Source of the DNA: Lepisosteus oculatus
Lineage: Eukaryota; Chordata; Actinopteri; Semionotiformes; Lepisosteidae
Direction of reading: 5' to 3'
Assembly (NCBI RefSeq): GCF_040954835.1
Contig: NC_090704.1
Coordinates: forward strand, 14,720,001-14,784,000
DNA length: 64,000 nucleotides
Made by a program: the position numbers and the translations under genes
The notes under the pieces: generated by a model
Told to the model about the DNA's origin: nothing
Database searches by the model: none
What the model saw: only the letters and a program-made list of their open reading frames with translations
Part shown: piece after piece, positions 5,226-64,000 of the stretch
Numbering within the stretch: the first letter of the stretch is position 1
How the letters are laid out: the number at the start of each line of letters is the position of its first letter

Positions 5226-5424
5226 GTGGGTAGCTGCGTCAGCATGCGTAGGCTGCAAAGGAACAAGTAATAGGTTTATTCCATGCTGAAAAAAAAGAAG
5301 AAAGAGAACACAACGTTTCGGCCGTGGAGCCTTCTTCACGTAACCTGAAGAAGGCTCCACGGCCGAAACGTTGTGTTCTCTTTCTTCTTTTTTTTCAGCA
5401 TGGAATAAACCTATTACTTGTTCC
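5226..5424. repeat. foldback repeat with 79-bp inverted arms
   Basis: Arms at 5260-5338 and 5346-5424 are reverse complements over their whole length, including the 8-base A and T runs, around a 7-base centre. A leader (GCTGCGTCAGCATGCGTAGG) at 5232-5251 precedes the left arm. The same leader and arm recur at 28339-28530, and one arm occurs at 20290-20366, so this is a dispersed family. The right arm carries CTGAAGAAGGC, a short loop and GCCGAAACG. That resembles the catalytic core of the hammerhead ribozymes found in Penelope-like retroelements, with one base different from the CTGATGA consensus. Confidence 0.85.
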
Positions 5425-6007
5425 ATTAATTTATTATGACAATTTAGGAATGACATAAATAAATAAAACATTTCTCTATGTAAACTTGTTTTAATTGTAA
5501 TACATATAGCACCTTCTTAGTTGAAATGATCAGGCGATACACAGTGCGTGTTTAATAATTTTGCTTTGATAATAATTTTGCTTCTTGTTAAAACTTGTTT
5601 TGTATGGTCGTTCCGACTTGTGATTGTCCGCTTCTATACTTCTAAATATATAACACTGTAAATTCAATCTAAAAACGTTTTTAAACATGCCTTTGATTTT
5701 TTTTTTGCAATACCTCGAATAAAATTGTATTTGTTCGTATGCTGTAGGTGTGCATTACATTGTATTGACAATATATCATTATTTTACGCTATAACATATG
5801 TTGATTTTCTCAAATATTTTAGGATTGCATGAAGTAAAACCGCTACAGTATTGTACTATTGAGTATTTTGCATATTTTGTATACAGCGCCTTTCCAAGTT
5901 TTCTTATTTTTATATTTTAAATAGATAACACGTGCGTTTTATGCACACATTTGTACAAAAATGGCGCGAGCTTGACCAAGGTATTAAGGAACCTAAATGG
6001 ACAAGGT

Positions 6008-6015
6008 TATAAAAA
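6008..6015 (+). promoter_or_regulatory. TATA-like element upstream of dmrtb1
   Basis: TATAAAAA lies 250 bp before the first in-frame ATG of the DM-domain gene, after a GC-poor stretch. It is the best core-promoter candidate in the interval, but it rests on a short AT word in AT-rich DNA. Confidence 0.3.
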
Positions 6016-6117
6016 AAATACCACATAGTATCTGTTTCGCGCTATACACTTTTCCCACGCATATTTCCCACGTTGGCACCAGTCTTCAGTGTAACTAGAA
6101 ATTTCGCGTCATACTTT

Positions 6118-6144
6118 ATGTTGAAGTTTTCCAGAGAGATTTAG
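6118..6144 (+). promoter_or_regulatory. short upstream ORF in the putative dmrtb1 leader
   Basis: ATG followed by seven sense codons and TAG, upstream of and not overlapping the dmrtb1 start. It matters only if transcription begins near the TATA-like element at 6008. Confidence 0.3.
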
Positions 6145-6207
6145 CCGTTTTAGTTCTCCGTTCCGTGCTGTCGAGCTTAGAGATACGAAACAATACGAGA
6201 GACCTAT

Positions 6208-6369
6208 ATGCACCTGGGGGAAGACCTCCTGAAAATTGTACCCCTCAAAATACAATCATGTCCACAATTTCGAAGCCAGACAATCAAGAGGACAGATCTG
6301 CAGAATGCAAAGCCATGCGGACTCCGAAATGTGCTCGTTGCAGAAATCACGGCTTCATCGTGCAGCTAA
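6208..6369 (+). promoter_or_regulatory. upstream ORF overlapping the dmrtb1 start codon
   Basis: A 54-codon frame (stop included) begins 50 bp before the dmrtb1 ATG in a different frame. It ends inside the DM-domain coding sequence. If present in the mRNA it would be expected to reduce initiation at the main ATG. The coordinates are read directly; the effect is inference. Confidence 0.35.
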
Positions 6370-9300
6370 AAGGACACACGGGCAAGTGTCCGTTTTATCA
6401 CTGCTCTTGTTGGAAATGCTCGCTTATTACAGAAAGGACGAAGATTATGGCATCGCAGAGACGTTTGAAAAAGTTACAAAACGAAGAAGCTTTAGGAAAT
6501 GCTAACCTAACTTCCGAGAAGGAACCTCTTACCACTACAAAATTCTCCGATTGCTGGACAGGGGTGTTCAAAAGCGGTCGAGAAGGCGCTGGGTCGCGAC
6601 CCGAGAGTTACCTACAAGGGGAACCCCCTGTCCCCAAGGTGCAGCAGCTGTCTGCCAGGACAGAAAGTGTAATTAAAAAATCGGCAAGGAGACAGGGTTG
6701 CGAGAGTTATTGCACCGAGCTAGCGGTGCCTTTCGAGACTAAAAGTGATCATTTGAATGTTCCCAGAATGGCGGCATCCAGTTCTCTTGGAGGCCCTTCG
6801 CAGAATTCAGACTTGGAAGCGGCGGGAGACCGTCCCCCCTTAGCTCAGTGGGGAGCTGTGGGCAGAGACGTGAAAGACAACGCCTTCGTTATAGGCAGAA
6901 GTAAGTCCTAATGCATTATCGATCGCATTTAGACACTGTATCCCTTTATTGCTTATATACATCATAGCAGCAAAATCCTAAAAACAAAACTAATCTCCTG
7001 CTAATGGGAAATTAGTTTCCCAAAGGCAAATTAATCGCCTTTGAGTTATCCATTTTGAAACACGGGTTGAAAATGTGTGAATTCATTTATTATTTCTACT
7101 TTGAATCGCTTTATCAAAAATGCAAAACACTGTCTATAAAATGAGTCAAAACAAGCGTGTGCCGTGCTTTCTTGTATAATTGTGCAAATTAAAAAAGTAT
7201 TAAGTATTAAGTTGTGTTATTATTGACAGATTTGAATACCGTTTTATTGCGCTTCATGGAAACACCTGGTACATGTAGATAGCTCGGACGTCTAATAATG
7301 TTGATAGAACTCTGCAGAAGCCTGTTTATGCCAGGAATTCTGCCCCAGAGAGCACAATCCACTCTATAGGTAAAGTAGGTACCCATCGCACCCTGAAGAA
7401 AATTTATTCGGTTACAGATTGTAAATGATATCGTTAAACGCATCGCCTCGAAGTGTGGTTAGCTGGGGAAATGCACGAAACACTTCCTATTAAAAACATT
7501 TTCTGAGTAATCACCTTCCATTGACAACAACTTCACAAAACTTAAAACAGACAACTGACATTACATTCGCTGTCTGATCAGATGTTGTTTCCGTCTTCAA
7601 CGCTTTTGACAGAAAATGCAGGCTGTGCTTTGACAGATGTGCTTCTCATTGATACCTTGACTGCTGTTTTTCAGACCCATCTCATGTGCCGAAGGATTTT
7701 GCACTGGCAGAGGTCACCCAGGGCGAAATGGGTACAGGGCAGTTCATGAATGTGCCCATCCCTGTAAAACTGTACACCCAGTATCCCAACGGCTACTCCT
7801 GCCAGGCCTTCTTACTTAGCATGCCACCAGCCCCGGGACCGATGGAGAGCCACTCTCTCCATTCTGTTCAGCTTGGCTTCTCCCACTTCCAGCCTAACAG
7901 CTCGGTACATTTACCAGAGTCCCCACAGGTAAGGAGACTGCGTTTCTCTGAGCAGAACAGTGAACAGAACAGTTTCTCTGAGCAGAACCGTCATGAGAAA
8001 ACGACATATCATTTTCTCCAGTTCCAGAATCCCTGACTCAGTAGGCAGTAGGCAATGACTTAAATTAATACCGTAATGTGTTTAGCTGTTTGATGTTAAT
8101 ATTTTGTAGAGTTACTGTACACAGTTTACCGTGTTTTTAGTATGGATACATGCAGCGCCTGTTACTGTATCTGCTCATACCAGTGCAGTCAGGCCCGTCT
8201 CAAAGTGGGGGCGAAGGGGGCGGCTGCCCAGTACCCCATGCTTTGGGGGGCCCCCCACCAGCCAACTCCCTCCCCCCCCCAACCCAAATCCCGCTTCACG
8301 CACGCATAAAAGTATAAAGACATGTTTAAATATTTTAATTGTCATGATCGTCATCCCTCCTCTAGAGGGCGCACCAACCCTTTTTTGTCGTTTAGTTTCA
8401 TTATCACGTTTGCCTGCCCCTTGTATCGTTTGTTGTTATTTAAACCCAGTGCTCCGGAAAGCTCGGGGCTCTGCATTGGAAAACGGACGCCCGGAGGTCC
8501 GCCTAGCATCAAGTCGCCCTACGTCCGCAGCTTGAAGGCATAGGCTTATGAACTGCGTCCTGACAAAGCTGAGTCCGGGGCTCGGAGCGCCTGGCCTCGT
8601 CCCTCCGTTTTTTAACTTCCTTGTCCCTGATCCTGTTCATGTTTCTATTCATGTCTTGTCTTGGATGGATCACCTGGTTTTGGATTTTGGACTGCGCCCT
8701 GATTTCCCTTTTGGACTCCCCCTTGCAACAACAGCTATTCTGGATCACTGTCGGTACCCCAACCCCCCCGCCCCCGTTAGCCATCCCTTCCATTCCTCAC
8801 CTTGTTTTCCCTGTAGTCCTTCTCCAGTTACTTCCAGATGATACAGTCTGCACAGGGTCCTAAACTACACACTTCAAGGGAGTCAGGACCGACTCCCATT
8901 ACTTTAATAAAGCAACACACAAAACGCTAATTTTAACACAAGATGAAATCTAAAGCTAGCGTTAGGGTAGTTGCTTTATCCAGAACTGGAGGCGTGTCCT
9001 GCGATAACTACGTCATAGGCCATCAGCTGCCAGCTAAAAGTGATTTCAGCAGAACTAAACTAGCTTGGGAAAAAAAGTTAGCTGGTGGAAAATGGCGAAA
9101 ATGAAAACTTCAGTGGGTGCAAGAAAAGTTAAAGGAAGCAGAAGAGGGAGGATGCAAATGTGGCATTTAAAGGGTCTTTCCGTTCGTTGTAAAAACCAGG
9201 AGCGAAGAAAAAATGGACACGGGTGGTGATCTCGACGACGACAAGGGTGCTGGCATTGAGAAACCTGAAGATGCATCCAAAATGGCCATATAAATGGCTG

Positions 9301-11717
9301 ACCCTGCGTTCTGACACCAAGCTTCTTTCTCTGTCTGTGTGTCTAAGTCTCGTGGAGAGCAAGTTGTGGTTTGCGAGAAGATAAATTCCTAATACAAGAA
9401 ATTGTATATGGCTAATACAGTGATCTTGTCTTATACCGCTAGCATTAGCAACAACGGCGATTAGGAGTTCTGTTTGGTTCTGTATGTCTGTTTGCGCAGG
9501 CCAGTTAGGTAGCCATTTCATCACCTGAACGCTGCCCCCCGCCATCACTACACACAAGTACTCCCCCACGCTGGGCCCTGCGACACCCATTCTGCCCTGG
9601 GCCCCGCCTACCCCTTGAGACAGCCCTGAGTACAGCATCAGCAACACATGCAGCCTCTTGAGCCTCAATTCTCCTTCGTCTTCTAGTGTTATGATGCTTA
9701 ATTAAGCTTCTAGGGCCTTTAATTGAACCATTCTCTTAATTAGATCTTTTGCTCAGTGCTCACTCCTTGCTGGTCCTTTAAGAATAATTTGCTGTCTGTA
9801 TCACCAGATGTATCACATAGTAAACATTGTCTGTCCTTGACATGATTCATGAACTGTAGCTCCCCTATAGTTTTCTTAACAACAGCTAATGACTAATTAA
9901 TGGAATGTCATTGTGTCGGACATCCTGATAATATTCTTGGTTCTGTACGGGCGCTTCTGCTCAATTTCCACCTAGTCGTTGAAACAATAAATCTGAACAA
10001 GAGGAGTCCAGAAACCCTGCATAGCAGTACCCGCAGGGTTATTGGTCATTTCTAACCTCACAATACTGTTGAAGAACTTTCAAAAAAAGTTTAAATGCGC
10101 AGCTACCTTAATTGTATTCATTAAGCCAAGTCAATTAAATCAAGAGTTCAGTTGGAACAAAAAACCATAAGAGATGGATCTTGTAGGTTTAGGCCTGATA
10201 TGTTTAGTATGTGAAAACCACCAGGGCTGACATGTGAAAGTAGGACTACTCTTCTATGAAAAAGCTGCCAAAAGTTTGCCCACAGAACACACATCATTCC
10301 TCTGACAGGTGATAGAGACGCCACCTACTGGTCCACCCACTCCACTTGCTGCAGTAACCCAATTTGCCCTGGAGGCCTCCCAGTCTGGGACTGAGACTGT
10401 GTACTGGGTACAGACCAAGCCCAGTCTTGCTTAGCCTCTGCGATCTGATGAGATCAGGCTACAAGGTGGTAATGCTGTAAAATCTTAACGCGTAACATTT
10501 TTATATGCATTGGGTTAGCACATGCTGCATATCCATAAAGGACATCTTTAGAGCAACTCTGGAGAGCCTGTTTTTGGGAGAATATTATACATTGTTCCCT
10601 AGAGGTCCCACCTAATGAGGTTTAATTCTTGTTGCTGCGGCAGGAAAACAGGTTTCCCTTCCTGCCACCTCAGTCTGCTGTACCCACGAGCTTCCAGGAT
10701 GGACTGCAGTTCAGACACCCCTCTCCCCCCGACACGCCCTGTCCCAGGGAGAGGAAACAGGCTGCAGGCATGTCAGCCAGACAGCGGTCTTTACTTCCAC
10801 TCCTGGACAGCCCCGATCCCACAGATTTCACAGGTAAACATTAAATCGATTAACCAACCCTTGGAACAACTGAACTGTGATCAAGTAGGTAGGTGGGTTG
10901 TCTGACAGTGATTATTTCAACGTCCCATGACTTTTCACAGGACAGCAAATGATTAAAAAAAAATAGTGCTAATATTGCGCTTTCATGAGAAATATTTGAC
11001 TTCCCTCTTTTGTCTTTCAATGGGAAATCCAGTCTTGTTTTATAGAATATACTGCACCTGTTTAACAGTTGTTTCAGTGCTGAAAACTACGTGCTGTTGC
11101 TGCTCATCCACACCTTTTAAGCACAATCTCTTCTGATTCTGTGCCACAGCTGAGGCCTTTCAACAGCACACCAGTGCGCTTTGGCACAGTCTGGGAAGGT
11201 AGAAGTAATTTGAAACGAACATCTGGATATTCTTTAGCCCTCAAGCACCAGAGCTTCCGTAATTGAACAAAATGCTTGATGAATCAATAACTTGAATGTC
11301 TTGACTTAGAGTTAGAGCAAAACTAACTGGTTTAGTTAGAACTGGAAGAAAGACCCCCAGAGATATTCTGCAAGAAGAAACCTGTGGTGAAATAGCACAA
11401 AATCAACAGCAGAGGGCACCCAAGATTACCTTTAAAGTATCTGTTACTGCTGAATTATTTTCATTCATTCCTAATTATAGTGATTCAATCATATATATGT
11501 ATATAATATATATTAAAGTATATTTATAGTACTCTAATTTTAAAGTTGTATACATTTAATTTTAATTATTACAGATTTTCAAAGGATCATGTGTATAAAC
11601 CACAGTCTCCTAAAACGTATCCTCCACTGTTTTTCACTATGTATTGCAGTCCCAAATGGAAGCCCAATTTCTGCAGACATTGAGGATTCTTCTGAAGAAA
11701 ATGAGATTGCTGTCTAA
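6258..11717 (+). CDS. dmrtb1: DM-domain transcription factor DMRT6/DMRTB1, four coding exons
   Basis: Coding exons read as 6258-6900, 7675-7928, 10644-10833 and 11650-11717 (stop TAA), giving 384 residues. All junctions are GT-AG and keep phase (1, 0, 1). Exon 1 holds the DM domain at about residues 21-68: [13 protein letters not shown], then KGHTGKC and a CSCWKC cluster. The eight zinc ligands are C25, C28, H31, H40, C44, C49, C51 and C54. The KGHxGKC and ERxKIMAxQ words resemble mammalian DMRT6 rather than DMRT1/2/3, which have KGHKRFC. The last exon ends in an acidic tail (DSSEENEIAV) like the acidic DMRTB1 C-terminus. The start is the first in-frame ATG; the open frame extends upstream without another ATG. 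Family role: sequence-specific DNA binding, linked to germ-cell development in mammals. dmrt2b follows in the same direction. Confidence 0.88.
8338..8865 (+). repeat. dispersed GC-rich repeat, copy 2
   Basis: Sense-orientation copy of the family at 2430-2835. It begins with GTCATGATCGTCAT and CCTCCTCTAGAGGGCGC, runs through the shared GAGTCCGGGG and TGGATGGATCACC words, and ends near CAGGGTCCT. It is longer than copy 1. No complete protein could be read, so its class is left open. Confidence 0.7.
9285..9430 (+). repeat. tRNA-type SINE, 3' part only
   Basis: Contains ATGGCTGACCCTG, the CCAAGCTTCT word, CTGTCTGTGTGTC and the AAGAAATTGTATATGGCTAA tail of the family at 25059-25335. The tRNA-like head is absent, as is usual for 5'-truncated copies. 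Confidence 0.75.
10305..10481 (-). repeat. 5S rRNA-derived SINE, antisense
   Basis: On the minus strand the sequence shows 5S rRNA words: TGATCTCATCAGATC, GAGGCTAAGCAAG, and TGGGAGGCCTCC with a GGGTTACTGC-like end. An extra stretch of about 30 bases interrupts the 5S-like part before TGGGAGGCC. It is a pseudogene-like SINE head followed by a short body, not a working 5S gene. Confidence 0.7.
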
Positions 11718-12078
11718 AGACAGGCAGAGATAAGAAGGGTGCTTGCATCTGTGTTTTCCTGTTTTGGAATTGTAATTAAATCTGTTTGAAAAAGCTATTT
11801 CTAATGACGCTCTTAAAAGCAGAGAACATCGGATAAAAAAATTAAAACAATTCAAGAGGCACTGCAGAGTGGCAATGAGAAAAATCTGAGTTTTTTGATC
11901 AAATACAATTGGGGTGTAGATGCTCTTAAAGCTTGTTTAAAAATGGTTTTCATAAGACTTCAGTCACACTGGGAGGATCAGTGTGAATGCCTTACAACTT
12001 GAAAAGAATTACTCGGAATGACCAAAGAAAATCTAGTGCTCTACGTATTTATTTTTTCTGTTGTCTAAAGGCAATGCC

Positions 12079-12084
12079 AAATAA
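12079..12084 (+). other. candidate polyadenylation signal for dmrtb1
   Basis: AATAAA lies 362 bp after the dmrtb1 stop and is the first canonical hexamer I found downstream. Usage cannot be judged from sequence alone. Confidence 0.4.
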
Positions 12085-12099
12085 ATGTTTTTGTGATTT

Positions 12100-15000
12100 G
12101 AAGTAAGATTGGTTCAGTTTGCAAAGTATGTGTTTATATTTGAAAAATATACTAAGCAGCTAAAAATAATTTATTAATACATATTTTAAATTGCTTTTAA
12201 ATATTTATTTAAATAATAGTAGCTGAGAATTTATTATGAATTAATCCCTCATCCAATGCAGTGTTGTCTGTTTTGATTGAAGTAAACTATCAGATTTATT
12301 TTTCTAAAGCAGTATGGTTTCCTAAACTGCCAACACTTCTCAAATAGTTATAGACTATATTGTTACATCTAAGCAAGTTCAAAAAATTGTTGGAAAAGCC
12401 ATTTAATTCTTGCCCAATTATAGTTTCCAATTCACGAATGAGTATTAAAGCTAGGATTATAGAGTGTCAGATTTTTTGGGGAATATATTCTGTTTATATA
12501 CTGCATGTATTATCTTATGCATAAGTAAGCTTGTGACATATTCTTGTTTTGCTAAGGTTTTAATCAATCCATTGTGAAAATACAGCATTGTAAAAAGAGA
12601 AATAACATTTGTTTTACACTAAGTATTTTCAGGGTTTACAATGGGATGAACAGTATTAGCTGTTGTAAAATTAATAACTAATGTATTTAGTCATAATTCG
12701 CTATTTTTTGTGCTCTAGTTCATTCATTAAAATTTGTAAAACGGATACTGTCAGAAATCTTGGATTATTTTTTTTTATTTTCATTTGCTCAAGGGAAAAT
12801 GAGCAAAACACTTAAATGGTAAGATTTGTCCATGTGGAAATACAAACTGTAGAAAAAATGTTTGTTAAATGGGGTTAACAAGTTAGCATTTTCTTTATTT
12901 GTAAAACAGATGCAAAAAATGTAATTACTGGTACAACATTCATGTTATTAGTTTATTTTCATTTAATATAGTTAAAGAATTGAGAATTTCCATTCAAGAA
13001 CAGCCTTCTTTCAAGACAAATTCATAGAAAATTAAGAATATTTGCAAAGTGGATACATCATGCAATCCAGATTTTTAAATGTACTGAAGATTGACATATA
13101 TTTTGAAAATTGTTACTCAAAACACATGCATATTTTAGCAGAATTCATATAACATTTAAACTGTTCAAAAAAGGTTCTCTTCTTTGAAGTTATACTGTGG
13201 TTTTTAGCTTAAGAACCTGTCTTTTCACAGGAATTTGATTCTTTTTCTGGATAAAAGAAAGTAAATGTACATCAGTAAGGAATCACAAGAACTGCTTAAC
13301 TAGTTCATACACATTTACAGATTACATTCATTATAAACCTTGGATATAGATGAATAATTTGCTTATAGATGATTTTAAGAGAATCTTTAAATAGTTTTAG
13401 ACATAAACAAAGCTCTTGAACTGCTGTAATAGCCCAGGTCTTTGTTACTTTTTGTTTCTGGAATTAGTTCATTTAAACGTTATTTGTCTTACCCGTTCAA
13501 TGTTCTTCTTGTTGTTATCAAAAACAGGTTAAAAGACTATTTTTATATATTTTGTTCTGGTTAACTTTGCATTTCTGCAAATAAATATTGGAGACAATAA
13601 AACTGCAGTTCTGTCTTTTCTGGAATATTATGTTGTGTTGTCTGAGAACAATAGTCTAGGATCTGGTTTGGCTGAAGCTTACACATGGAACACAAGGTGG
13701 CAGTATTGGTAATAAGGCAAATAAAATGTCTCTCCTAATCTGGTAGTAGTATCTATCTGTATATGTATAGCATTACTCCTCTGGCAGTGAGAACTAAGGC
13801 AACCTATTGGCTTAGACCAGGAAACATCCCTCCTGGAGAATCCTGCTGTGCGGAAGAGAATTGACAGTCTCATCACATTTTCCCAGCTGTGATTGGCCCA
13901 GTGGTTCGAACCATGACAGCCTGTCTGTCGTGTTTGGTCAGGGCTTGCAGATACTGTAAGTCTACTTATAACACCACATCATAAACAGCTGTGTTTCTGT
14001 AAACAAAGAGATTGAACCTATCAGGTAAATATTACAGTATTCCCAAAAGTACCATATCCTGGTTGTATCTCAAATCAAATCAAAGTTTATTTATCAAGTG
14101 CACAACAATACAGTGTGCAGCAGTAGTTGCTGGCAATGAAATGTCTTAATAAAGAAATAGACAAGGACGAATGGGAGCTCGCAGGACGGCAGCCTTCCCT
14201 GTCGGCGCCATCTGCATTATCCATGACCCACAGTGGAATTTAGCTAGAACATTATGATTAACAGCCCTACTTGTTTGAACATTATGATGGGATTTTAAAA
14301 GCCAAGCAGTCAGGGCCTCAAGCAGTTACTGTCTCTTCTGAAGTCAGGTATTCCCTGTGCAGTGTCCCCTGTCACCAGAGTAAGGCATTGGTTTGGAAAT
14401 TCTGCACCGGGGAAAGTGCGCCCCCTATTGCCCTCCATTTCGATAAGCAACCTGGTTTTCCTTAGCATTCTGCCGTCTCTCTGACCAGGCTGTCTTGCTT
14501 AACCCATGTGCCTTCCTTGAGCTAGAGAATCACCCTATTTACAACTCAGAAATATTTTCTGTCCTCTATATTTTCCGTTAGCTTCAGCACGTATTGCAAT
14601 CAAGAAAAGGGATGGTAGAATACACGTATTTTTTATGAGCGTTTCTGTCGTCAAATAGTATTTTAACATTGTACAACAGAACAGCACAAATGTTACTGTA
14701 CATGTAAGAGAGGCTCTTTTCAGCAGTGCGCCATCCAAGAACGTTATTATAGGTAAAATGATTCTTCTTCGTATTAAATACGAACACTTTTCTCACACAC
14801 CATACAAATTCCAAATACCCACAATGCAATTATAGGTCGTTCTCAATTATTCATTGTTATCAATGGCCAGAGAGAAATCAAATGGTTTCTGCACTTAATG
14901 AAAGAGGAGCATTTGTGTCTGTGTTATGACCACTTCCTTGGTTAAATCGTGCTGTTCTTTCAATTCGTATTCACATTTATTAAGACGCAATACCTGCCTT

Positions 15001-15739
15001 GCAATCCAAAGCTGAGCTGATCAAATAAAAAAAACAACTTTGAAACAATTTGCCAGTTTTAATTTTAGTCCGTAATGATGCACTCTCGGGTGAGATTAGT
15101 GTTTACCATGCAATTAATTCCTTGAATCCGCTGTACTTACCTTCGTCCCATTCAACTACTTTACTGTATATGTAGGTCCAGCAAAATCTGGAACGCTAAA
15201 GTTAATGTTTGTTTTTATATTTGTTTGAACGGCATGCTTAAAAAAGCACTAGATGTTCATGTCTTTAACAGTGAATGTCGGCTATTGAGTGTCCTTGGGG
15301 TCGTGGAAAGAAAGGGTTAAATTTCATGTCAAGACAAGTGACGTCCAACATTATTTGGGGTGTAGACAGTACACTCATTAAAAGCAAAGACAGAAATAAG
15401 AGGTAAAATGAGGAGGCGGTTAGCACAGGTAAACCTGCGTGTACATTTCTCGGGTTGGTTTAATTACCATGGGATGTCAAAGGAGCAGCGTTGTAGTGTG
15501 AGCTGGTGAACATCTTGGACACAGATCGAGTAGGACTACAGCGCGTTGTTTTTAACGGCTTTAACATAATTTTGGAATGAAAATGAATAGGGTGCAAAGT
15601 TGATACGAAAATGAGTAAAAAGTAAAAAAAAGTTCAACAGGTGAATCTGGTACCGAAGTACGTCTTCTTTTTTTAAAACAAATCTTTCCCTGAACTACAT
15701 GTGATACATTTCTGTGTAGCGGAAAGGTACCGATTATAG
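12100..15739. other. intergenic spacer between dmrtb1 and dmrt2b
   Basis: This is where a dmrt3-like member would lie if the dmrt1-dmrt3-dmrt2 gene order were kept. I looked for the DM signature ([13 protein letters not shown]) on both strands and found none. The sequence is AT-rich to about 13.6 kb. From about 14.6 to 15.7 kb it is less repetitive and could hold dmrt2b regulatory DNA, though no site stands out. Confidence 0.5.
14070..14170. repeat. short interspersed fragment
   Basis: CAAATCAAATCAAAG followed by TTTATTTATCAAGTGCACAA is the kind of 'tcaaatcaaat..tttattt' sequence common in fish retroelement 3' ends. The fragment is too short to assign. Confidence 0.4.
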
Positions 15740-18700
15740 ATGTCCAAAGGGTTGAAAACACAGCAGGAATCGAAAAGGCTCGATTTGCTCACACCGGAGT
15801 GCGATGAAGACATCGATGTAGAAAGTGTGGATGGGTGTCTGTCCCCGGGAGGCTCGGAGGAACTCGGCGTCGGCCAAGAGCGAGGGGCGAGGCCGGTGTC
15901 CGAGCTGCAGCAGCGCGGCCAGACGCGCAGCCCCAAGTGTGCGCGTTGCAGGAACCATGGCGTGGTGTCCTGCCTCAAAGGCCACAAGCGGTTCTGTCGC
16001 TGGCGGGACTGCAGGTGTACCAACTGCTTGCTCGTCGTGGAGCGACAGCGGGTGATGGCAGCGCAGGTGGCCCTAAGGAGACAGCAAGCCACGGAGGTGG
16101 GTGCCCTCTTTATTTAATACTAAAATTAGGTTCATTTTCTCTCGGGTGAAACCGTGCCACTGACGCTACGTATTCAAACGAGTTAAAATACACGTTGAAA
16201 TAGCAGTACAAAAGATTAATTTTCATTTTACCGTAAACTTGTTGAAGTGATCAGCAGTAATGTTACATGCTTAAACTAAAGAGATATTTGATGTGGTAAA
16301 AATAATTTCCTTTAAAATTTCTAAATATTTTTATATATCGTCATAATATTTAATATAATATTTAAATATTTATATTTACAGTATACAAGTATATAAATAA
16401 TGCATTAAGACTGGATAAATGTATACAGTTTACAGCCTCATGCTTCTGCACATATAAGCGTGCAAACTGCATGATTCTGATGGTGAATTATATATCGGTG
16501 GCAGACAACAACTGCTGTCCGCCGATACTGCAATGTATCTTGAGTTGGTTAGCAGTTCGATTTCAATCCATGTCGTGCTGTGCGCTCTCAATTTCCAAGG
16601 TTTTGTTGCTTCGATTGCGTGCAGTGTGAGTACACTGTACAGTATGTCCAAAAAGGTGTATTATTGTCGAGCGAAATCATTGTTTTTGTTTTAAACCGTT
16701 ACTGGAATATCATCTCAGTGACAGAAAACACTGAAAAACGGTAATCCCTGGCTGTTTTGTATTTTAATTAAATTAAGGTAAGAATCCAATTTTATCTCGG
16801 ATGTTTTTTTCAGGTTAAGAAAGATGCCAATGGAATCGCAGTCTCAGGAGGAGTCAAAATCAGAAGACCTCCCTACCACCGCTACACGAGGGAGCCTAGT
16901 CTTCTAGCAAAAAGTATTCTGGAAGGTATAGCTTTGTAAAATGTGTTTATAATGTGACATTTAGGATAGGACAGTTATGTTTTTGTGTTTTAAAATGAGT
17001 ACAATACATTTAAGAGTGCTTAATTTAAAAGCTGTCAACTGCTAATTGTAAACAAAATTAAGATAATAGATATTCCAAACAGAGTACCTGGTCAGCTGTA
17101 TTAAGAAGTTTAGGAAGCTATCTATGATGTGGGGAACTTAATTCTTTTTATTGTACCAGATGGGAAATTTGCTGTACAGGCAGGTAAAAGCCAAAATACA
17201 ATACACAATACATTTGGCACAACATGAACCCCTTCAACGAATAAGAAACGTGTATGATGAGAAAAAATATATAAAGTAAAATACATATTCAATTGTAGAA
17301 GTTAAGCAGGTTAATAGCTGTGGGAATAAATGATGACTTAGTTCTGTTGCACTTGAGTCTGGGTAATTTACTGTAAATCAACAGCCAAATGGAAGGAGCT
17401 CGAATTCACTGTGCAAGTGGTGGTCATGACAGTCAATGATTATATTGGTTTTGCGAACTATTAATGTTTAGATGTCTGTTAGCTGTAGGTGTCGTCCACC
17501 AATAATTTTGCTGGCTGTCTTGCTCAGTCTGTTCTTATTGTGTGATTTAAGGTTACCAACCCCGGCTACCTTGGTAAATGTTAGGACAGATTCAATAAAA
17601 GTGATTGGGAATATCAACCACATTGTGCTGTTTGTAGATGGAAGAATTCATTTTACATTATTTTGTACTTAAACCTTTTTTCTGTTTAGTACAAGTGATA
17701 ATTCTGACAGCATATTCATTATCCTCATGCTAAATCAGGCTTATGACATTTAACTTATATTGACCTATATACAGTATACACAACATAGTACCTGTGTATG
17801 TATAAAGGTCTAAAGTGTTCTTTTGAAATGTGTTGGACATTAGATTTTCCTTGCTGTTAGTCCCATGTTTATGTATTTACAGCTTTATTTTTAATGATAT
17901 AATATTAAAATATCTTTTTTCAAATATTGTTACTCGGGTTTTCGAAGGGCAAACCTACTCAAAGTTAAATCTAGGCCTCCAGATGAAGGTTGGAATAAAA
18001 CATGAACCTGCTCGTTCCCTTCAGGATACAAGCCTGCTGTTTTAGAAGACTCCGTGTGGGCAAAGACGACGCCCTACCCCGCCCTGAGCGAAAGGATGAG
18101 GAAGAGACGGGCTTTTGCAGATAAGGAGCTGGAGGGCATCATGTTAGAAAGAGAAGTCAGGCAAAAAGAACTGGAAGACCTGTCTGGACTGAAAATGCTT
18201 GGACCTCTGTTGCCAGGTCCTGTAACCAGGTGCTGCACATTTCAAGGGCCAATACAAGACGCTTACTTGCCTTTTCTGAAAACCAGTCCCATACTACTGG
18301 AGTGTGGGTTGCAGTGCTGCTTAGCCCAAGAGCTGGTGTTGTCCGGGTCAGAGCAGTGCCATAACGAACATCCACCACTCCAGGACAACAGGCTGCTGAT
18401 GGAGCCTGTGGATGTGCCCGGAATAAAGGATCTGGGACGTTTGGAAAGCTGCAGGGAAAGCCTGACCTACTGCGGGACTCTACAGCCTTCACCCCCTCCG
18501 AGGTGCGCTTTGCAAAACCCGTGTCCATCGGAGCGCGCCGCTCCAGTGCGTCAGAACAGCACCGATGTCACCTTCCAGCTCCAGCTCCCATGTCGACGGG
18601 TCACATGCGTGTCACCTCCGAGCCTCGAGGGCGCCGAGTCCGAACCATGGGGAGGCAGTCGTGAAGACTGTAAGAATTCCAGGTGCTATGGATTCACAGT

Positions 18701-18821
18701 TCAACCCCTCAAAGAAACAAGTGTCTGCAGTGTCAGCCAGGAACAAAACGACACGAAAAAGCCGCCATTCCAGGGAGTAAGAACATTGCCTTTTTCGGTA
18801 GAATCACTGCTGAGGAGTTAA
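15740..18821 (+). CDS. dmrt2b: DM-domain transcription factor Dmrt2b, three coding exons
   Basis: Coding exons are 15740-16096, 16814-16925 and 18025-18821 (stop TAA), giving 421 residues with phases 0 and 1 and GT-AG junctions. The DM domain spans about residues 65-115 ([47 protein letters not shown]) and is almost the Dmrt2 consensus. Two further Dmrt2 hallmarks follow: [11 protein letters not shown] at the end of exon 2, and [20 protein letters not shown] at about residues 179-199 in exon 3. The distal C-terminus is diverged and the protein is shorter than mammalian DMRT2. The dmrt2b name rests on linkage to dmrt6: the ordinary dmrt2 sits with dmrt1 and dmrt3. Exon 1 is strongly GC-rich compared with its flanks. 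Dmrt2 proteins act in somite and left-right patterning in fish; a role here is inference. Confidence 0.88.
17150..17665. repeat. probable old interspersed element in dmrt2b intron 2
   Basis: The phrases AGCTGTGGGAATAAATGATG, GTTCTTATTGTGTGATTTAA and CTTGGTAAATGTTAGGACAG have the look of a recurrent fish retroelement segment. Assignment is by recollection only, and no second copy lies in this window. Confidence 0.35.
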
Positions 18822-28338: not shown

Positions 28339-28530
28339 TGTAGCTGCGTCAGCATGCGTAGGCTGCAAAGGAACAAGAGACAAGAGAAGAAAAGAAACAC
28401 GTTTTTTGGCTGTTAGAGCCTTCTTCAGGTATCAGGTACCCACCTGAAGAAGTCTCCACAGCTGAAACATTGTATTTTTTTTCTTCTCCTTTCAGCATGG
28501 AATAAACCTTTACCTGTTCCTTTGCATCAA
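28339..28530. repeat. foldback repeat, diverged copy
   Basis: Has the same leader (GCTGCGTCAGCATGCGTAGG) and the same arm layout as 5226-5424, with arms meeting around 28435. The arms have drifted: CCTGAAGAAGTCTCCACAGC and GAAACATTGT replace the paired words of the first copy. Still clearly an inverted repeat. Confidence 0.8.
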
Positions 28531-53273: not shown

Positions 53274-56200
53274 ATGTCTGCGGTTGTTATTCAGTCTCAT
53301 CACATCTTCGGTCTCCGGGCCGGGGTGACCAATAATCTCCTGTACTTTGATGAGCAAACTGTCATCTTCCCATCTGGAAACAACTGTGTGCGCTACAACA
53401 TTGACCAGAAATGGCAGAAGTTTATTCCAGGTAAGAAAATGCATCTCCATAAATTGACTATATTGTGTTGTCTTTTTAGATTGTGGACCTCAATATGGGA
53501 ACTCGGTATCTTTGATTTTAAGGAACGGTCTGTGGTTAATTCTGTTCTAATTATCTAAAGAAGCATTAAGAATATTTTTCTTGCAAATGAAACAAACATA
53601 TAATATTAGATATAAGGTGTGTGAATGTGCCAATTGGATGGATATAATTCGTAGAGTGCCATAGAGGTCTGTGTTCGGAGCACTATGCTGACTAGTTTGT
53701 ATCAATGATCTAGATTCTGGCATACATAGTAAAATACTGAAATTCACAGACATCAAAACAGGAGGATTAGCAAAAACAGAAGAAAGTGAAAAGGAAATTT
53801 AAAAAGATTCAGATGGAATTCAAGTCTGAACAAACATCTAGTAGATGACATCTAATGTAGACAACTACAGAGTGTTACATGCAGATACCAAAGACATAAA
53901 CCATAAATTAAAATGGAAAACATGAAGCTGCCTATAAAACATACTTATGGATTTTTGTACGATGTGACAGACACTTCTAGACAATAAACAGGCAAACAGA
54001 ATGTTAGTATATATATTTAAGAACATAGAGTTATAGTTATAAAATTTAAATGATGTGCTGTAATGTTAAAGTTGTACAATACACTAGTAACACTTAGAAT
54101 GGGTGCATAACTTAGGTTAATATGATACAAAAGAGGTATTGCCTCTCTGGACTGAATACAGAGAAGAGTGATCAGCTACATACCTGTATTCAGAAGATTA
54201 TCCTACTCTAAAGGTCTAAAAGAAGTAAAACCTTATACCCTGAAATAGAGAAGACTATGAGTTGACCTAATTCAAGAATTCAAAAAAATGTTCCAGGGGA
54301 GACTTTCCTTAACAGCTGTGTTGTGTCTTGCTTGGTTTGCGTTCGTGTGGGTCCGCCTTTGAAGAGAGGGAACTTTAGGCTGTGGAATGTCTTGACTCAG
54401 GGACTCATAAACTGTAAATATTTTGTAGATACTAGTTTGTGTGTCTTGTATATTTGAATTATAACTTAATCTTTGTATGTGTTTTAAGTTTGTCTCCTCG
54501 TTATTATGCCACCTTTAAACTGTATAACAGTTTATAACACGTGGCCAAACTTGACTATAGACAGCATTTTATTAATTTTATGTGTAATAATTATTGCAAC
54601 TAGTATACAATTAACATTCATTAATTAACATAATAATTAGTGTCTAGTATATACAAATAACACCTTTGTATAAGGACCCTACATTTAAAATCCCCCTATT
54701 TATAATATTTAGCATCACATTTCAAACAGATTTGGAACTCTTTTGCATGTCTGTCACGTTTAACAGAACAATAACCGATAATGTGGAGACTGTTAACCAT
54801 CAGTGCTACTATGCTCTGCAGGCACAGAGAGAAGCCATGGCATGCAAGCCCTGGCCATTAGCTCCAACCGCCGCTACCTGGCCGTGTCAGAGAGAGGCGA
54901 GAAAGGCACCATCACTGTGTACGACCTGCAGCATGAGCAGAGCAGGAAGAGGAAAGTCCTGAGTGGGGGGGACTCCCCAGTGCAGGACTTTGTCTACATG
55001 GCTTTCTCTCCAGACTCCAAATACCTCATTGGCCAATCGGGGGCTCCAGACTGGACCCTGTTCTACTGGATGTGGGAGAAACAAAAGGTGATGGCCACAG
55101 TGAAGACTGGCACCACAACTAACCCTATCTCCCAGGTACTGAACAAAACAGGGTTTAAGTTTGCACGCGACTAGTTTAGATGGCCACCTTATAGTCCTTC
55201 TTGAGTTTCTACTGACTTTGCCACCAGTGGAAGCTAATAAAGATAAATTGCATGAGGGTGGATAAAAAAACAAAACCCTTTTAAAAACCTGAGGCATGAA
55301 GAAAAAGTGATGAAAACAGTCTTAAACTCAAAAAAGACATGATTGTGAGTGGATGTGTTGGATTTATGTAATTTGAACATACACTGTTGACCACAAGTTA
55401 AATGGGTTAATGTAACTTTTTATTAATTGAAATATCAATGTAAGTGTAGACAGTGGTGACTAATTTCTTTTAATCATTAGGTTTAAACTAATGAGTTATT
55501 TTGATTTGTCTATCTGTAAGTGAAAAAACAAAAAGGAGCTATTAATGTTTTAAAATACACATTTCTTTTATTTCCTAAGGTTAGTTTTAATCCTCAGGAC
55601 AACACACAGATCTGCGTGAGTGGAAATGGGGTGTTTAAACTCTTCCGCTATGCTGAAGGAACCCTCAAACAATCCAACTTCCAGAAGCTGGAGGCTCACA
55701 ACTTCCTGTCCCACATGTGGGTGTCGGATGAGAGAGTTATTGTCGGCACAGAGACCGGGAGGCTCCTGGTGTTTGAGTCAGGAGATCTGCGCTGGGAGAT
55801 GAGTGTGGTGCCAAAGTTAACCACTAGAGATACTGACAGGTACAGTGAGAGAGGGAGGCTGGAGAGACAAACAACAACTGTTTCTAAGCTGTTCACTGAT
55901 GCTCCTCTTAAATATGTAGTACAGACGTTTCTTAAGGGACCTCAGAAATTTGCAATGAAAATGTTGACTGAATCTTCTGCTGTTTATGCCACCAATTACA
56001 TCCATGTGTCAGAAATGTGTACACTTGAATCAGGAAGTTAAATAACCGAAAGTTTAAATTTCCAAAGTAAAGCACTTGGAATCAATGGCATCATATGAAC
56101 ACAGGTTGATATTAGGAACAAGAGAAGTATTTCATTTATGCCAAGTACTGTATGAGTCCCCAGTTCTTCTTGATACATTTGTGTTGTGTACAGAGATTAT

Positions 56201-59200
56201 TATGACAACAGATTAACAATGCCTGTTCATCCATCTTGTGTGTTCATCCATCCACCTTCAACAATAAATGCGCATTAAAGCGACAAATAATATGTTAACT
56301 TTCACACTTATAATGTAAAAACATAAAATGCATGCAGTTACAAACTTCTGTTTTTGCTTGTTAGGTCAGTGGAAAAAAGCATGCTGGATGAGCCAATGTC
56401 CACCTCTCTTCCTCATGTCTCAGCCATAACTGCCTATTCCAAGGGGTTTGCCTGTGCAGCTGGGCCGGGGACAGTGTGCTTGTTTGAGAAGACAGACGAA
56501 AAGGACACATATAAGAGAACCAGGGAGATCAGGGTGAGAGAGTATTGTCTCTTGACTTGATTTGATTACAGAAATGTTACTTCCTTTATCAAACCTTACA
56601 AAAGTTTAGTCTAGAACTTTTATCAAGTTGGAGAAGACAGGATCATAAAAATGTACTACGGAGATTCCAAGTTCAGTATGCTTGTTGTGGACTTTATCAT
56701 CTACATTTAATACAGGTATTAACTTATTTTGTTAGTTCATTCCTGATGAGATACTATATAGTGTGTTGCATGGTGTATCACAAGCCAGTGGCCAGTCAGC
56801 AGTAAAGATTGTGCTTCACTAACAGATTCCTTCAGACCAGTACAGTAATGAGCCCAGCCTGGCAGAGCAGCAGGAGATTTCTTCACTGTGTATCAGCCCT
56901 TCAGAGGAAACCCTCGTTGCCAGCACTGACCGTGGCCAGCTCTACAGCATTACCCTCTCCTCTGCAGAGATGAGCAAGGTACTGCTGATGTACACCCATT
57001 CAGATTCTATTGGCTTGTGAAAGGCCAAACATAATTCTAATTTTTATGGAATGTTTTTTTAAGTATTAATTCCTTATGTACATATTGCACTGCCATTTCA
57101 GTGTTACATAAAAATGTTGTTTAAGATTCCTGAAGTGATTAAGAACCTATAGTGGTCTTTGAATTTACATTGAAGTTTTGTTTGCATGTTGTGTTATTTG
57201 AAGGGGGAGCAAGCACAGTTTGAGTTCCTGTCCCACTCCTTTCACTCTGGCATCATCACTGGTCTGTCCATATGCATCCGTAAACCTCTCATTGCCACCT
57301 GCTCTCTGGACCACTCTGTTCGAATCTGGAGTTTTGAGAACAAGTAAGCAGAATGACCAGATAAGTGCACAGTGTTTCATCCTCCTGGGCTGCTTTACAA
57401 CTTTCCATTTCCACAGATGTCATTGTCTTTTAAAAACTACAGTTTTCAATGTCAGGAAAATAAAATCAGGAAAAGTCAGGTACTTTGACTATTATGAACA
57501 TCTGCTATTATTGTATACAACATAATTTGCATAGCACATTCTATTTATATGAATATAATATTTATATTACCATTTAAGATGCCTATAGTGCTGGTTTAGC
57601 ATTGTGTATTTGTACATATTTTTGTTTATGTCCTCTCTACTGAACCCTCCACTCGTTCCAGCACGTTGGAACTTTATAAAGAGTTCCAGGAGGAGGCATA
57701 CAGCATTGCACTCCACCCATCTGGTCTTTTCATCCTGGTGGGATTCTCAGATAAATTGCGGCTGATGAACCTGCTCATTGATGATATCAGGACCTTTAAA
57801 GAATTCACCGTGCGGGGATGCAGAGAGGTGAGATCAAACACAGAAACAGATCCATTCAGTAGTGCAGATTCGTTCTAACAGTTGCTCAGTGTAAATGTAT
57901 CAATTTGAAAAAGAAATATTAAGGAATTCTTGTAGTTCAATAACTGCATATATCAACATTTTAAAACAAGAAGTTTTGTCCCCACTTTGGAAGTTCTAAC
58001 TGTATTGATGCCTGTCGTGTATACTGTAGGAAGCAAATGAAGTGCATTACATGCTACAGATTTCAGATAAGACTGCTTTATTTCCAGTGTGCTTTTAGTC
58101 ATGGTGGCCACCTGTTCGCAGCTGTCAATGGAAACATCATTCACATCTATTCGACAACAACATTTGAAAACATCCTTAACCTGAAAGGACACAATGGAAA
58201 GGTGAGACAAGGCACCTGTTTGTTCAAGCTTAACCTATATGCTTGCATTTACAACTGAACATGGTGCTTAATGAGTGGCATTATGTACAGTAAATGTGAA
58301 CTTGCATTCTGAGTGAGATAAAGCCAGTTAAAAAGAAAATAAAAAAATACAGAATACTTGAAGTTTTCAGAGTCTTGGCAAAATTGCAGCTGCAAGGTAA
58401 TACCGATTTTTTTCTTGTGATTTGCTTTCTTGTGTGCTCCTCAGGTACGGTCCATTGTGTGGAGTGCTGATGACAGCAGGCTGGTGTCTTGTGGCATGGA
58501 TGGAGCTGTCTATGAGTGGAACACCCTCACCGGCAAACGGGAATCAGAGAGCGTCTTGAAATCCTGCAGCTACAATGATATCACCATCTCTTCTGACAGC
58601 AAGACCATCTTTGCTGTCGGCTCAGACTGCACTCTGAAAGAGATCACAGATTGCCAGGTGTGGGAAGCGTACTGTAGAGATTCCTTTGCTTTTTTCTCTG
58701 TGTGGCTGAGAACATCATTTCATATATGCATGATCAAAACTAGCTGATGTTTTTGAATAATTCTGTTTCATGCCTTATGGAAAAAGTAATTTCTCACTTT
58801 ACTCACTTTTTAAATGCAGTACATTAGAACTTTGCTGTATTCTCCCTGACACTATATACAGCATCAGAATCCAATTCTAATCTTCTTATCTAGTACAGGG
58901 ACAAAGGGGAAGCCTGAATCTAACATGGCAAGCAATGAGTGCAAAGTGAGATACATCCTGGATGGGATACCAGTAGTATCAGAATCACATGGCATAATTA
59001 TCTTATTTGTTGGTGTGTAGCCTTTTTACATAAATACACAGCTGTGCAAAAGTCAAACATTTTGCATTGTTCTGCTCTTTTCAGTCAATGTTTTTCCTTC
59101 TTTATGTAGAAACATATCTATAGTGATTTTCTACTGATGTTATTTATTTAGGGTTAGGTTTAATCCTGACAGATCAGGTATTGCAATAGACAACCTTTTA

Positions 59201-62200
59201 GTTGTATTGATATGGACGGAGGAATGAATGAAAATAATGACAAGCAACACCAGACAATCTTTTAAGATTACTTGGTAAATGTGATGGAAAAGCTACTACA
59301 AACATTCAAATTTGCTGCATGTGTATAATTCATCTGGGTTGTTCTAACCATGTTTTCAAACCTCCCAAATTCAATATGAATTAACAATTTCACATTTCAC
59401 ATTCAATTCTCATACAAACATAAATATTTAAATTAGAAGAATTGGTTAAGGCATAAAGAAATTGTTCATGCTCATGACAGAATATTTCAAATCAATTGTA
59501 CACTTCTGTGTCAGATTCCTTTAGATTTTTTTTTATTTTTGTCCTGCAATGTTTGAAGAACAACAGGTTGTTCCTTGTTCTAAGTTAGATGACTACTATA
59601 AATAGTCCTGCAGTCCTGCTCTGCTATGGTGACTCATACGCTATTTAATATTACTTTGTTATTGTTATACAATATTTGTTTTTAATGGCAGCAAAGTGTG
59701 TAGTATGTGTACAAGAACATGTTTCTCTCTACAATCAGTATGTTTTATTTTTTAATCATATTCTAATTTTAAAGGAAAAAATATTTATATTTTGCTTTTA
59801 TAGATCCTGCGAGAAGTTTACTCTGATGATGTGGTATACACCAGTGTAGTGATGTCTCGATCAGGACGAATGTTGTTCACCGGCACATCTCTTGGAACAA
59901 TTAGAGCCATCAAATACCCTTTACCAATACAAAAAGACTGGACCGAGTATCAGGCACATGCTGCACCTGTGACAAAGGTGCGTTTCAGTATTTTATTATT
60001 CATAAATATGTTAAACATGCCAGCTAAGACCCAAAAGTCATATAACAATACTATATTATTATGAAGTGTACTGTATGAAAGATGAAAGATGTTGAATCTT
60101 TCATCTTTATCCAATTTGCATTTTTAATAAATGATTTGAAGATTAGGTCATTTAAGAAAAGGTCTAGGAAAACAACAACCAAATCAATTAATGTTTCACT
60201 CATTCCATGCCTCTTATGGTTGCGCCTGCAGATGGTTATCACATTTGATGACCAGTATTTGCTGACAGTATCAGAGGATGGGTGTTTGCTGATCTGGAAG
60301 ATAATTGACAAAGAAGGACGAGGCCTAAAACGAGACAAAGAGGTCACCTATGCAGAAGAGATTCTCATCACCAAGTCTGACTTGGAAGAGAAGGTAATTG
60401 TAGTTTATTTGGTATGTCATACAGTAGGGCAGTAACAGTGCAATAAAAAGGAGTGATTAGCGAAGTCATATATAATATAGAGTATATGGTATATAATATA
60501 TATAATTTATCAATGCATACAATTTTTACTTTCATTTTGTATTAAAGAATGTATACATTCCTAAAAAAACATTATTGTGAAGTAAGGACATTAAATACTA
60601 TCCAGCATTAATAGTTATATTTCTAGTGTTTTACATTATGTTGGGATTAATTGTGTGTCACTTTTCTTTTGTTTTGCTTACATAGTTAAATTCTAAGTCT
60701 CTTCGAACATAAGAAGTATAAAAAATTGGGAAAAAGAGAGATGATTTTTTTCTCTTTATCTCCATGTTACAGAATCAGGTCATGCTGGAATTGAAAACGA
60801 GGGTAGAAGAGTTGAAAATGGAGAATGAGTACCAGCTCCGACTGAAGGACATGAATTACAATGAGAAAATCAAAGAGCTGACTGAGAAATTTATCCAGGA
60901 AATGGAGTCCCTGAAAACAAAGAACCAGGTGTGCGATCAGCAGGACCTTTATAAATAATGCGGCAGATTTAAATTTACAAAACATATTCAACAATTTTGT
61001 ATTAGCTTAAATTTAAACCATAAGCCAAGCTTCTACTGTATAAACTTCCAGAGATATTACAAAATGATTGAGGGGACATAATTCCAAGTGGAAATTGACT
61101 CTTTTTCTATTGCCAAGAAAAGGTTAATCAGAATAAAATGTTCCTTATGCCAGTGATGTGACTGAATTAGCAACACTTTACAGTGGAGTACAACACCACA
61201 TTCAGCAGGTTACTTAAGTCTTATGAAACTACCATGAATTTGAACCTGGTTAAATTACCTCAATATTTTTTTTCACTTTTTACTAATTTGAGTAATCCCA
61301 GAGGATGGTTCAATAAATGTGCCCAAGTGCATCGAATCTCTTTTCCTGAGGTGTTCTGGTGGCTTTTAATCAAATTTCAAAGCTAACGTTACGCAAACTA
61401 TCTACAGTGTTTTAAAAACGAATGACTTCCCTCACTGGAATATTCAGCCTTTTCATGCCTGGTTTCATAAAGGTTCTCAAAACAGAGAAGGAGAAACAGG
61501 AGCAGGCTCACGAAGAGGAGCTGGCAGTGGTGATGGAAAAACACTCCAAAGAACAGCAGGACTTAGGTGATTTCTCCGACTTTCCACCAGTTAGGGTATT
61601 TAATTAAAAGCGACTAATGAAACATTATTACATCATAGTACTGTATATTGATCTTGTACATGCACCATTAGAATTACTAGTAGAATTAGTAGCATTTTTA
61701 AAGATTTTAAGTGATATCATGGCCTAATTAAACGTTCAAATCAGATGAAAGACACCATATTGTAACTGAAAAGTTAAATATTATTTTTTAAGAACACAAT
61801 GTTTTTTTATTATAATACATTTTTGTTGGTATAATGGCAATCCAATTGTTTTAGTAGTGATATGCTGTGCTACAACGAGACAAAGCAAACTACACCAAAA
61901 GACTGACCAAAGCCAAATTATTTGTACTTAAATCTCCTGCTGGTCTAAACCTGCTGTCTAACATCCCTTATGCAGAGTCAGCGAACAACCAAAAGCTGAT
62001 GCTGGAGTATGAAAAGTACCAAGAGCTGCAGGTGAAGTCCCAGAGAATGCAGGAGGAGTATGAGAAGCAGCTGCATGAGATGGAGGAGAGCAAGACCCAG
62101 GCACTGGAGGAGCTCACAGAGTACTATGAGTCCAAGCTTCAGGAGAAACTGCTAATGCTGGAGCAGGTAACAGTGTTAACACTAGACTTCTATAGAAATA

Positions 62201-63770
62201 TTTGTAATGGCATTTGATTAAAGCATTTCATAAGGACACTTTAAAAGTTGTACTGGAACAGGTTTTGAAATGTTTAAAAAAATCAAAGTCTGCATTTTCT
62301 CTCGATGACCAAAAATATTTAAGCAGATCTTAAAGATAACAAGTAACAAGTGATATTTGTACAGGGAGAATTAAATTGAAGGAGTGCCAACAGCACAGAC
62401 CCAAATAATCCTTTTAAAATCAGTAGAAGGTTTCTAAAGCAACAGTTACATAATGCTGCAAAAAAAACATTGAAATAAAAAAATCAGGAAAATGGAACTA
62501 ATGTTCTCATATTTTAATTTAATGAACAACTGAAGATCTATTAATTTTTTTTTTCAATTTGATTCAGTGTTGCACCTTACCTGGCCTTCTGTGTCTCAGT
62601 CTTGTGATCTCTCTGACAGTGTCAGGATGAGTCACGGCAGCAGGTGCGAGAGTTCGAGGAGTCCAAGAAGCAGATGGAGGAAGATGGGGATCGGGAGATC
62701 CAGGACATCCGCATCAAGTACGAGAGACGACTGAGAGACGAGAAGGAGACCAACATGCGACTGAAGGGTGAGACCGGAATCATGAGGAAAAAGGTGGGAA
62801 CAAATTTAGAGAGAGGAAAGCTTCCAGTCCACTGAATCACTTTTTTTCCCATTCTAACTCAAGCCATGTCCTCATAGCAAAGTACTATATAAACCATTGC
62901 TGTAAACAGAAAAACCCAAATGAGAGATACCATCATGTATGATGTGATTATGAAGATGTGTGATAAAGTATGGAAGAAGGACTTTGGTGTTAGGATTTAT
63001 AGCAATGCTGGGAAAAATAATATTTGCAGTGACTCTTACATGGATTGTATGTGAAAAATTCAAAACTCATTTTAAGTTACGTTTTTACAGTAGATGTCAA
63101 GAATCTTAATGTCAAAAATGTTGTCAAGGATGTCAAAATGTTTATTATTTTTATTGTATTAATTTTAATTTAAGAAACAGAATATTTCAATTTGACCCTA
63201 TGACAAAATAGGGTGTCCCAAAGGCCAGAGAGTTAGACTGTTGCCTCGTAGCTCTTGAGTCCTGGCTTTGACTCCGGACTGTGGGACCTTCTGTGTTGAG
63301 TTGCATATTGCATATTTTCGTTGTGTTCTCCTGGGGTTGTGCCAAGTGCTCCAGTTTCCTGCTTCTCTCCAAAGTCATGGTGGCTAGATTATTTGGTGTC
63401 TATAAGGAGTTCCTATTTGCAATGGACTGGAGACTGGACTTCAGTTCAGAGTGTTTTCCTGCCTTGTGCTTCCATGACAGGGGACTCTTACCAGGAATAA
63501 AAGACGCTCCAATAGTGGCTGAATAAATTGAATACATCAAATGTATTTTATAGTGACATTTTCTTCAATGTGATTTTCTAAGACCCTTCTGTCTTTCCTT
63601 TGTCAAATCAGTTCAGCAGTCTGCAGAAAGAGATTGATGACAGGAATCTGGAGATTGAAAAACTGAAGTCAGAGCAACAGAAATTGCAAGGAGTCATCAG
63701 ATCCCTAGAAAAGGATATCCTTGGACTAAAGAAGGAGATCCAAGAGAGAGATGAAACTATCCAGGACAAG
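53274..63770 (+). CDS. cfap57: cilia- and flagella-associated protein 57 (WDR65), 3' end beyond window
   Basis: Sixteen coding exons: 53274-53430, 54822-55135, 55580-55839, 56365-56533, 56826-56978, 57204-57343, 57662-57827, 58088-58201, 58445-58657, 59804-59977, 60232-60393, 60773-60928, 61473-61566, 61976-62166, 62620-62793 and 63612-63770. They join in phase to 932 codons, about three quarters of the ~1250-residue family. Residues 1 to about 674 form the WD40 part (QSHHIFGL at the start; [42 protein letters not shown]). From exon 12 the protein becomes an acidic/basic coiled coil ([29 protein letters not shown]). CFAP57 acts in motile cilia in assembly or anchoring of a subset of inner dynein arms. 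Compared with my recollection of the human protein, a serine-rich stretch around the exon 3/4 junction is missing. The stop codon is not in the window. Confidence 0.95.
53640..54310 (+). pseudogene. decayed CR1/jockey-type LINE reverse transcriptase fragment in cfap57 intron 1
   Basis: Reading through stops and frameshifts, the + strand gives [15 protein letters not shown], the conserved LINE word near the reverse transcriptase active site, followed by a lysine-rich stretch. Farther on, about 54160-54290, come traces of the 'sleeved' end region in which the LINE protein reads like RVQRRATKLI..LEKRR. There is no intact frame. Confidence 0.65.
58893..58982 (-). repeat. small L2-type fragment in cfap57 intron 9
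   Basis: GATACATCCTGGATGGGATA followed by CCAGT, preceded by GGCAAGCAATGAGTGCAAAG, is a diverged antisense copy of the LINE-type tail seen at 32400-32450. Confidence 0.55.
59040..59330. repeat. possible Tc1-like MITE in cfap57 intron 9
   Basis: Starts CAGCTGTGCAAAAGTCAAAC, close to a known fish Tc1-like terminal sequence (GTGCAAAAGTC). The rest is AT-rich and I did not find the matching inverted end. Confidence 0.35.
63200..63535 (+). repeat. diverged tRNA/L2-type SINE in cfap57 intron 15
   Basis: GTTAGACTGTTGCCTCGTAG, GAGTCCTGGCTTTGACTCC, CCTGGGGTTGTGCCAAG and a CTGCCTTGTGCTTCC tail follow the order of the copy at 41976-42310, with heavy divergence. Confidence 0.55.
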
Positions 63771-64000
63771 GTGTGTGATGCCTGAGTTATCTTACAAATA
63801 CAAACGTAAATATCAACTCTCAAACTTAGCTTCTGAAAAAAAGGATTAAATGCAAAACACATACAGACAGCTGATTGCAACAATACCTGCCATACAAATA
63901 CCAAGTCAGCAACAGCTGGGAACAAGGGGGAAGTTTGAAAGCTGAAGATGAAAGATTACATTATGAGTGCTATTATAGTGAAGCTTGCGGAAGACTCCCA

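Follow-up and report, generated by a model that had tools for sequence, protein, structure and literature searches.

The closest described systems are those of gar and coelacanth. Mawaribuchi et al. (2019, PMC6737965) report that gar has both a dmrt1-type and a dmrt6-dmrt2b cluster and that dmrt6-dmrt2b also occurs in coelacanth, the cluster being conserved in these two only among six vertebrates; they did not find dmrt2b in tetrapod databases, and credited the dmrt2a/dmrt2b pair to the early vertebrate duplications (2R). Dong et al. (2020, PMC7689362) propose two ancestral chromosomes, one carrying kank1/4-dmrt1/6-dmrt3-dmrt2a/2b-dmrt4/5 and the other the same series minus dmrt3, and describe a kank4-lrp8-dmrt2b synteny. 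Their count of a single dmrt2 in coelacanth conflicts with that of Mawaribuchi et al. As to function, Dmrt2b knockdown in zebrafish affects somites, slow muscle via Hedgehog, and left-right asymmetry (PMC2749440), while DMRT6 has been described as a germ-cell regulator in mouse and, in the testis of coelacanth, has the highest expression among 25 genes of male development.

The window analyzed here, i.e., the whole 64,000-nucleotide stretch at C9:14720001-14784000, carries two DM genes in tandem on the plus strand, both matching the Pfam DM profile (PF00751). This is the arrangement that the first-pass annotation had described, a dmrt6-like and a dmrt2-type gene in the same orientation, and its limits also held, with the start codon of the first gene at 6258 and the stop codon of the second ending at 18821. 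Exon 1 of the dmrt6-like gene (6258..6900, +) is delimited by this ATG, the reading frame and a donor site (GCAGAA/gtaagt), and its translated region (6258-6911) matches the DM profile at 75.6 bits against a cutoff of 27 (E 2.7e-21). The DM domain itself (6318..6488, +) matches DMRT1 4yj0 by phmmer at E 8.5e-16 and keeps all eight invariant Cys/His columns, which we take to be its zinc ligands. Exon 2 (7675..7928, +), placed from the sequence and a splice model, follows in frame with both acceptor and donor present, and presumably resembles the middle of DMRTB1; the two exons together keep an open frame across 897 bases with GT/AG junctions, the exon 2 acceptor being modest (2.5). Direct reading further yields a probable last coding exon (11650..11717, +), which has a weak acceptor (1.6) and ends in ADIEDSSEENEIAV followed by a stop. 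The frame would require an extra exon ahead of it. A search for this intermediate exon returned two splice-flanked candidates at limits stricter than some of the accepted junctions and four at looser limits, none of them recognizable. An open frame at 10603-10905, within the interval between the two genes, contains three of these four candidates.

We evaluated the identity of each gene from 48 DM columns, through direct identities and through trees (LG+G4, ultrafast bootstrap) of ten sequences: five loci from the same genome, the two window genes, 4yj0, and working reference sequences of DMRTB1 and DMRT2. The first gene is closest to DMRTB1 (32/48), followed by dmrt3 (29/48), dmrt4 and dmrt5 (28/48 each), and dmrt1 and dmrt2a (26/48 each). 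Seven private positions are shared with DMRTB1, and no more than one with another of the five references, and the gene groups with DMRTB1 at a support of 96 in the ten-sequence tree. Measured against this working DMRTB1 reference, its DM domain is thus of the DMRT6 type, as had been proposed from a first reading. The nearest solved sequence for both window genes is the DMRT1 DM domain, 4yj0.

The second gene comprises three exons that splice through GT/AG junctions to 1266 bases, i.e., 421 residues plus stop. Exon 1 (15740..16096, +) holds the DM domain (82.6 bits for the translated region 15740-16117, again above the cutoff of 27, E 1.8e-23; phmmer to 4yj0, E 1.1e-26) and was bounded by its frame. 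Exons 2 (16814..16925, +) and 3 (18025..18821, +) were placed from frame and junctions, the second donor, at 16925, being weak (0.7 on a simple matrix). Exon 2 is 61.9% identical over 21 residues to its counterpart in the same genome's dmrt2a, and exon 3, which matches that of dmrt2a at E 6.3e-13, carries a 13-residue Dmrt2 block, the C-terminal FSVESLL and the stop. Both the block and the C-terminal FSVES(L/I)L are present in the two genes, which have a common exon layout and align exon by exon at 63% over 119 columns, 62% over 21 and 37% over 112. Within the DM domain, 44 of 48 residues are identical to dmrt2a (39/48 for the next gene of the genome), and five private positions are shared. 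The gene joins dmrt2a and the DMRT2 reference at a support of 91 in the ten-sequence tree, and dmrt2a at 87 when the tree holds only the seven genes of the genome. By DM type and 13-residue block it belongs to DMRT2 (2a/2b), in agreement with its initial description as Dmrt2-like. It is the second dmrt2 of this genome, taken here as dmrt2b, located on C9 and outside the dmrt1-dmrt3-dmrt2a cluster of C3. Identity to the DMRT2 reference is 48/48 for dmrt2a and 44/48 for dmrt2b, values consistent with tetrapod DMRT2 being orthologous to dmrt2a, and dmrt2b being the second copy, although a faster-changing dmrt2b would look alike.

The start codons of the two genes lie 9.5 kb apart. A spacing of 4 kb between them, as given by the first-pass annotation, applies only when the probable last exon at 11650-11717 is included; from the last firm exon (7675-7928) the distance is 7.8 kb. 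That annotation had also considered the place of dmrt3 to be empty, which agrees both with the position of the genome's one dmrt3 on C3 and with a tblastn search of the interval (7929..15739, +), where four queries, with a working DMRT3 reference used to cover the DM part of dmrt3, detected no DM-domain relic of that gene. Specifically, best scores were 18.1–19.2 bits in the interval vs 16.9–20.0 in a reversed decoy, the interval exceeding the decoy by 1.2 bits for three of the four queries and falling 0.8 below it for the fourth, while real DM domains cross-match at 64.7–103 bits.

Across the whole genome (1,200,105,466 bases, 813 contigs), PF00751 yielded seven matches: the two window genes on C9, three on C3, and two elsewhere. 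Named by eye from their DM exon and position, those on C3 are dmrt1 (C3:22466519), dmrt3 (C3:22418619) and dmrt2a (C3:22398827), and the remaining two are dmrt5 (C9:27236412) and dmrt4 (C1:64125661). Because all three C3 genes lie on the minus strand, their order along that strand is dmrt1, dmrt3, dmrt2a, i.e., the one-strand order attributed to vertebrates at the outset is seen in this very genome. KANK genes, recognized by the KN motif, are found at four places (C9, C3, C11 and C32), two of which flank the DM clusters. One (C9:14531273, +) is 195 kb upstream of dmrt6 and the other (C3:22491724, −) 25 kb upstream of dmrt1, each on the strand of its cluster. The suggested comparison of KANK flanks thus returned matching order and relative orientation, KANK-dmrt1-dmrt3-dmrt2a on C3 and KANK-dmrt6-dmrt2b on C9. 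By simple arithmetic, if the four places were random, both clusters would each have one of them within 200 kb with a probability of ~1.3e-6.

Other gene families extend this relationship beyond the two clusters. PDE4 (PDE4_UCR, nine exon matches) is found on the same four contigs as KANK, and NFI on C9, C11, C32 and C1, the last instead of C3. The SMARCA-type QLQ motif was detected on C11 and also, 100 kb past dmrt2a, on C3; a genome search found no such partner on C9. As a control, the Runt family maps to C2, C11 and C13, with one of three loci on a paralogon contig and that one (C11) 12 Mb from the KANK there. DM genes are absent from C11 and C32 in the whole-genome PF00751 search. Overall, C3, C9, C11 and C32 form a fourfold paralogon of the kind expected from early vertebrate (2R) duplication. 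None of the families shows extra copies (DM 7, KANK 4, NFI 4, PDE4 on four contigs, QLQ 2, Runt 3 loci), and hence there is no sign of a teleost-type additional duplication. Together with the absence of dmrt2b from tetrapod databases (PMC6737965), this makes the source a bony vertebrate that is probably a ray-finned fish outside the teleosts, such as a gar.

Taken together, these patterns make it very probable that dmrt6-dmrt2b is a remnant, on one post-2R copy, of a KANK-dmrt1/6-dmrt3-dmrt2 cluster that lost dmrt3, with the sister copy on C3. The ancestral cluster would have been duplicated in 2R; one copy would have been kept as KANK-dmrt1-dmrt3-dmrt2a (C3), while the other, on C9, would have lost dmrt3 and so been left as KANK-dmrt6-dmrt2b. 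The reading of the pair as an ohnologous cluster, already offered by the first-pass annotation, is supported by the KANK flanks, the C3 cluster, and the NFI and PDE4 paralogon. Its further proposal that dmrt6 takes the place of dmrt1 stood by position but not by DM identity, where dmrt1 (26/48) scores below dmrt3 (29/48); as DM identity does not pair the gene specially with dmrt1, this correspondence rests on position.

An alternative origin for dmrt2b, as a teleost-era duplicate of dmrt2a moved beside dmrt6 by translocation, has next to no likelihood here: although older papers credited the gene to a fish-specific duplication (PMC3010978; PMC2749440), dmrt2a and dmrt2b sit in two members of the fourfold paralogon, with a KANK gene upstream of each, and the same pair is reported from gar and coelacanth, both outside teleosts (PMC6737965). 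Nor is a lineage-specific dmrt2 duplicate indicated, the genome having two dmrt2-type genes, one per cluster, on different contigs. The claim that dmrt2b is older than teleosts accords with the placement of both copies in the paralogon and with the published gar and coelacanth pairs; an age beyond that visible in this genome is what we infer from them. The first gene might likewise be a divergent duplicate of some different DM gene (dmrt1, dmrt93B or dmrt3) instead of dmrt6, and its margin between DMRTB1 and the genome's own dmrt3 is indeed modest, three columns of 48 in a comparison that leaves dmrt93B and DMRT7 outside. However, the grouping with DMRTB1 at 96, the seven private positions against at most one for five other references, and the published dmrt6 at the corresponding place in gar and coelacanth (PMC6737965) leave this only a slight chance. 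More plausible than either of these, if still unlikely, is that one of the two genes, more likely dmrt6, is decaying in this lineage. The splice-candidate search found no third exon for it, only five of 17 fish species have dmrt6 (PMC7689362), and it has become a pseudogene in a skate (PMC6737965). Against decay, exons 1 and 2 remain open over their 897 bases with GT/AG junctions, and the Cys/His columns are intact. We thus retain the 2R-remnant reading, with both genes present; each protein would bind DNA through its DM domain, and, by analogy with the species studied, dmrt2b may have a somite, slow-muscle and left-right role and dmrt6 a male germ-cell role.

Outside the pair, one further gene was recognized in the window. 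This is cfap57, a WD-repeat axonemal gene that runs on the plus strand from its first ATG at 53274 to at least 63782 (53274..63782) and probably extends beyond the window end. It was delineated from CFAP57 matches, with the remaining exons placed by eye: the piece at 54797-55174 matches CFAP57 at E 5.8e-33, and that at 55520-56038 matches 9fqr_Hy (labelled Dynein axonemal intermediate chain 3) best, at 1e-35, and CFAP57 at 8.8e-33. Among 342 open frames of at least 50 codons outside 6000-18900, no other gene was recognizable by eye, and scanning the window for tRNA genes and Rfam families returned no match. The gap between dmrt2b and cfap57 (18822-53273, ~34 kb) is accordingly without a gene recognizable by eye, and may carry regulatory sequence of dmrt2b. 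A near-perfect palindrome of ~170 bases (5257-5427), which over 168 aligned bases has 97.6% identity with its reverse complement, resembles a short foldback transposon and has related pieces at 20290-20365 and 28340-28526. A dispersed family at 3042-3312, 9285-9427, 25063-25334 and 47453-47666, with 79–86% identity between copies, is possibly a SINE.

Set beside the described clusters, this locus shares several elements with the spotted gar LG10 and coelacanth cluster (PMC6737965): the same pair, a sister cluster on another chromosome, and kank and pde4 members nearby. As in spotted gar (PMC6737965), dmrt5 shares the chromosome of dmrt6-dmrt2b, here at C9:27.2 Mb, and two paralogon chromosomes are free of dmrt genes, LG6 and LG19 there and C11 and C32 here. 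The scheme of Dong et al. (PMC7689362), in which one ancestral copy is without dmrt3, equals the hypothesis favored here, yet most of their 17 fish are without dmrt6, while dmrt6 and dmrt2b are both present in this genome. The arrangement, its 2R origin and the correction of the older view are thus already known from published work, and the locus adds a clean example, with both sister clusters and their KANK flanks within one genome, of dmrt2b as a relic of those early duplications, not a novelty of teleosts, against the older view of a fish-specific duplicate. Among the papers searched, none treated cfap57 together with dmrt2b. It is conceivable, if on the doubtful side, that this is a lineage without a reported dmrt6-dmrt2b linkage and that cfap57 is an undescribed downstream neighbor, in which case the locus would supply a marker for the ancestral block, along with a genome-wide map of its four copies (C3, C9, C11, C32). 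Relative to the gar and coelacanth account of Mawaribuchi et al. (PMC6737965), in which we noticed no cfap57, the present locus has that gene 34 kb downstream of dmrt2b.
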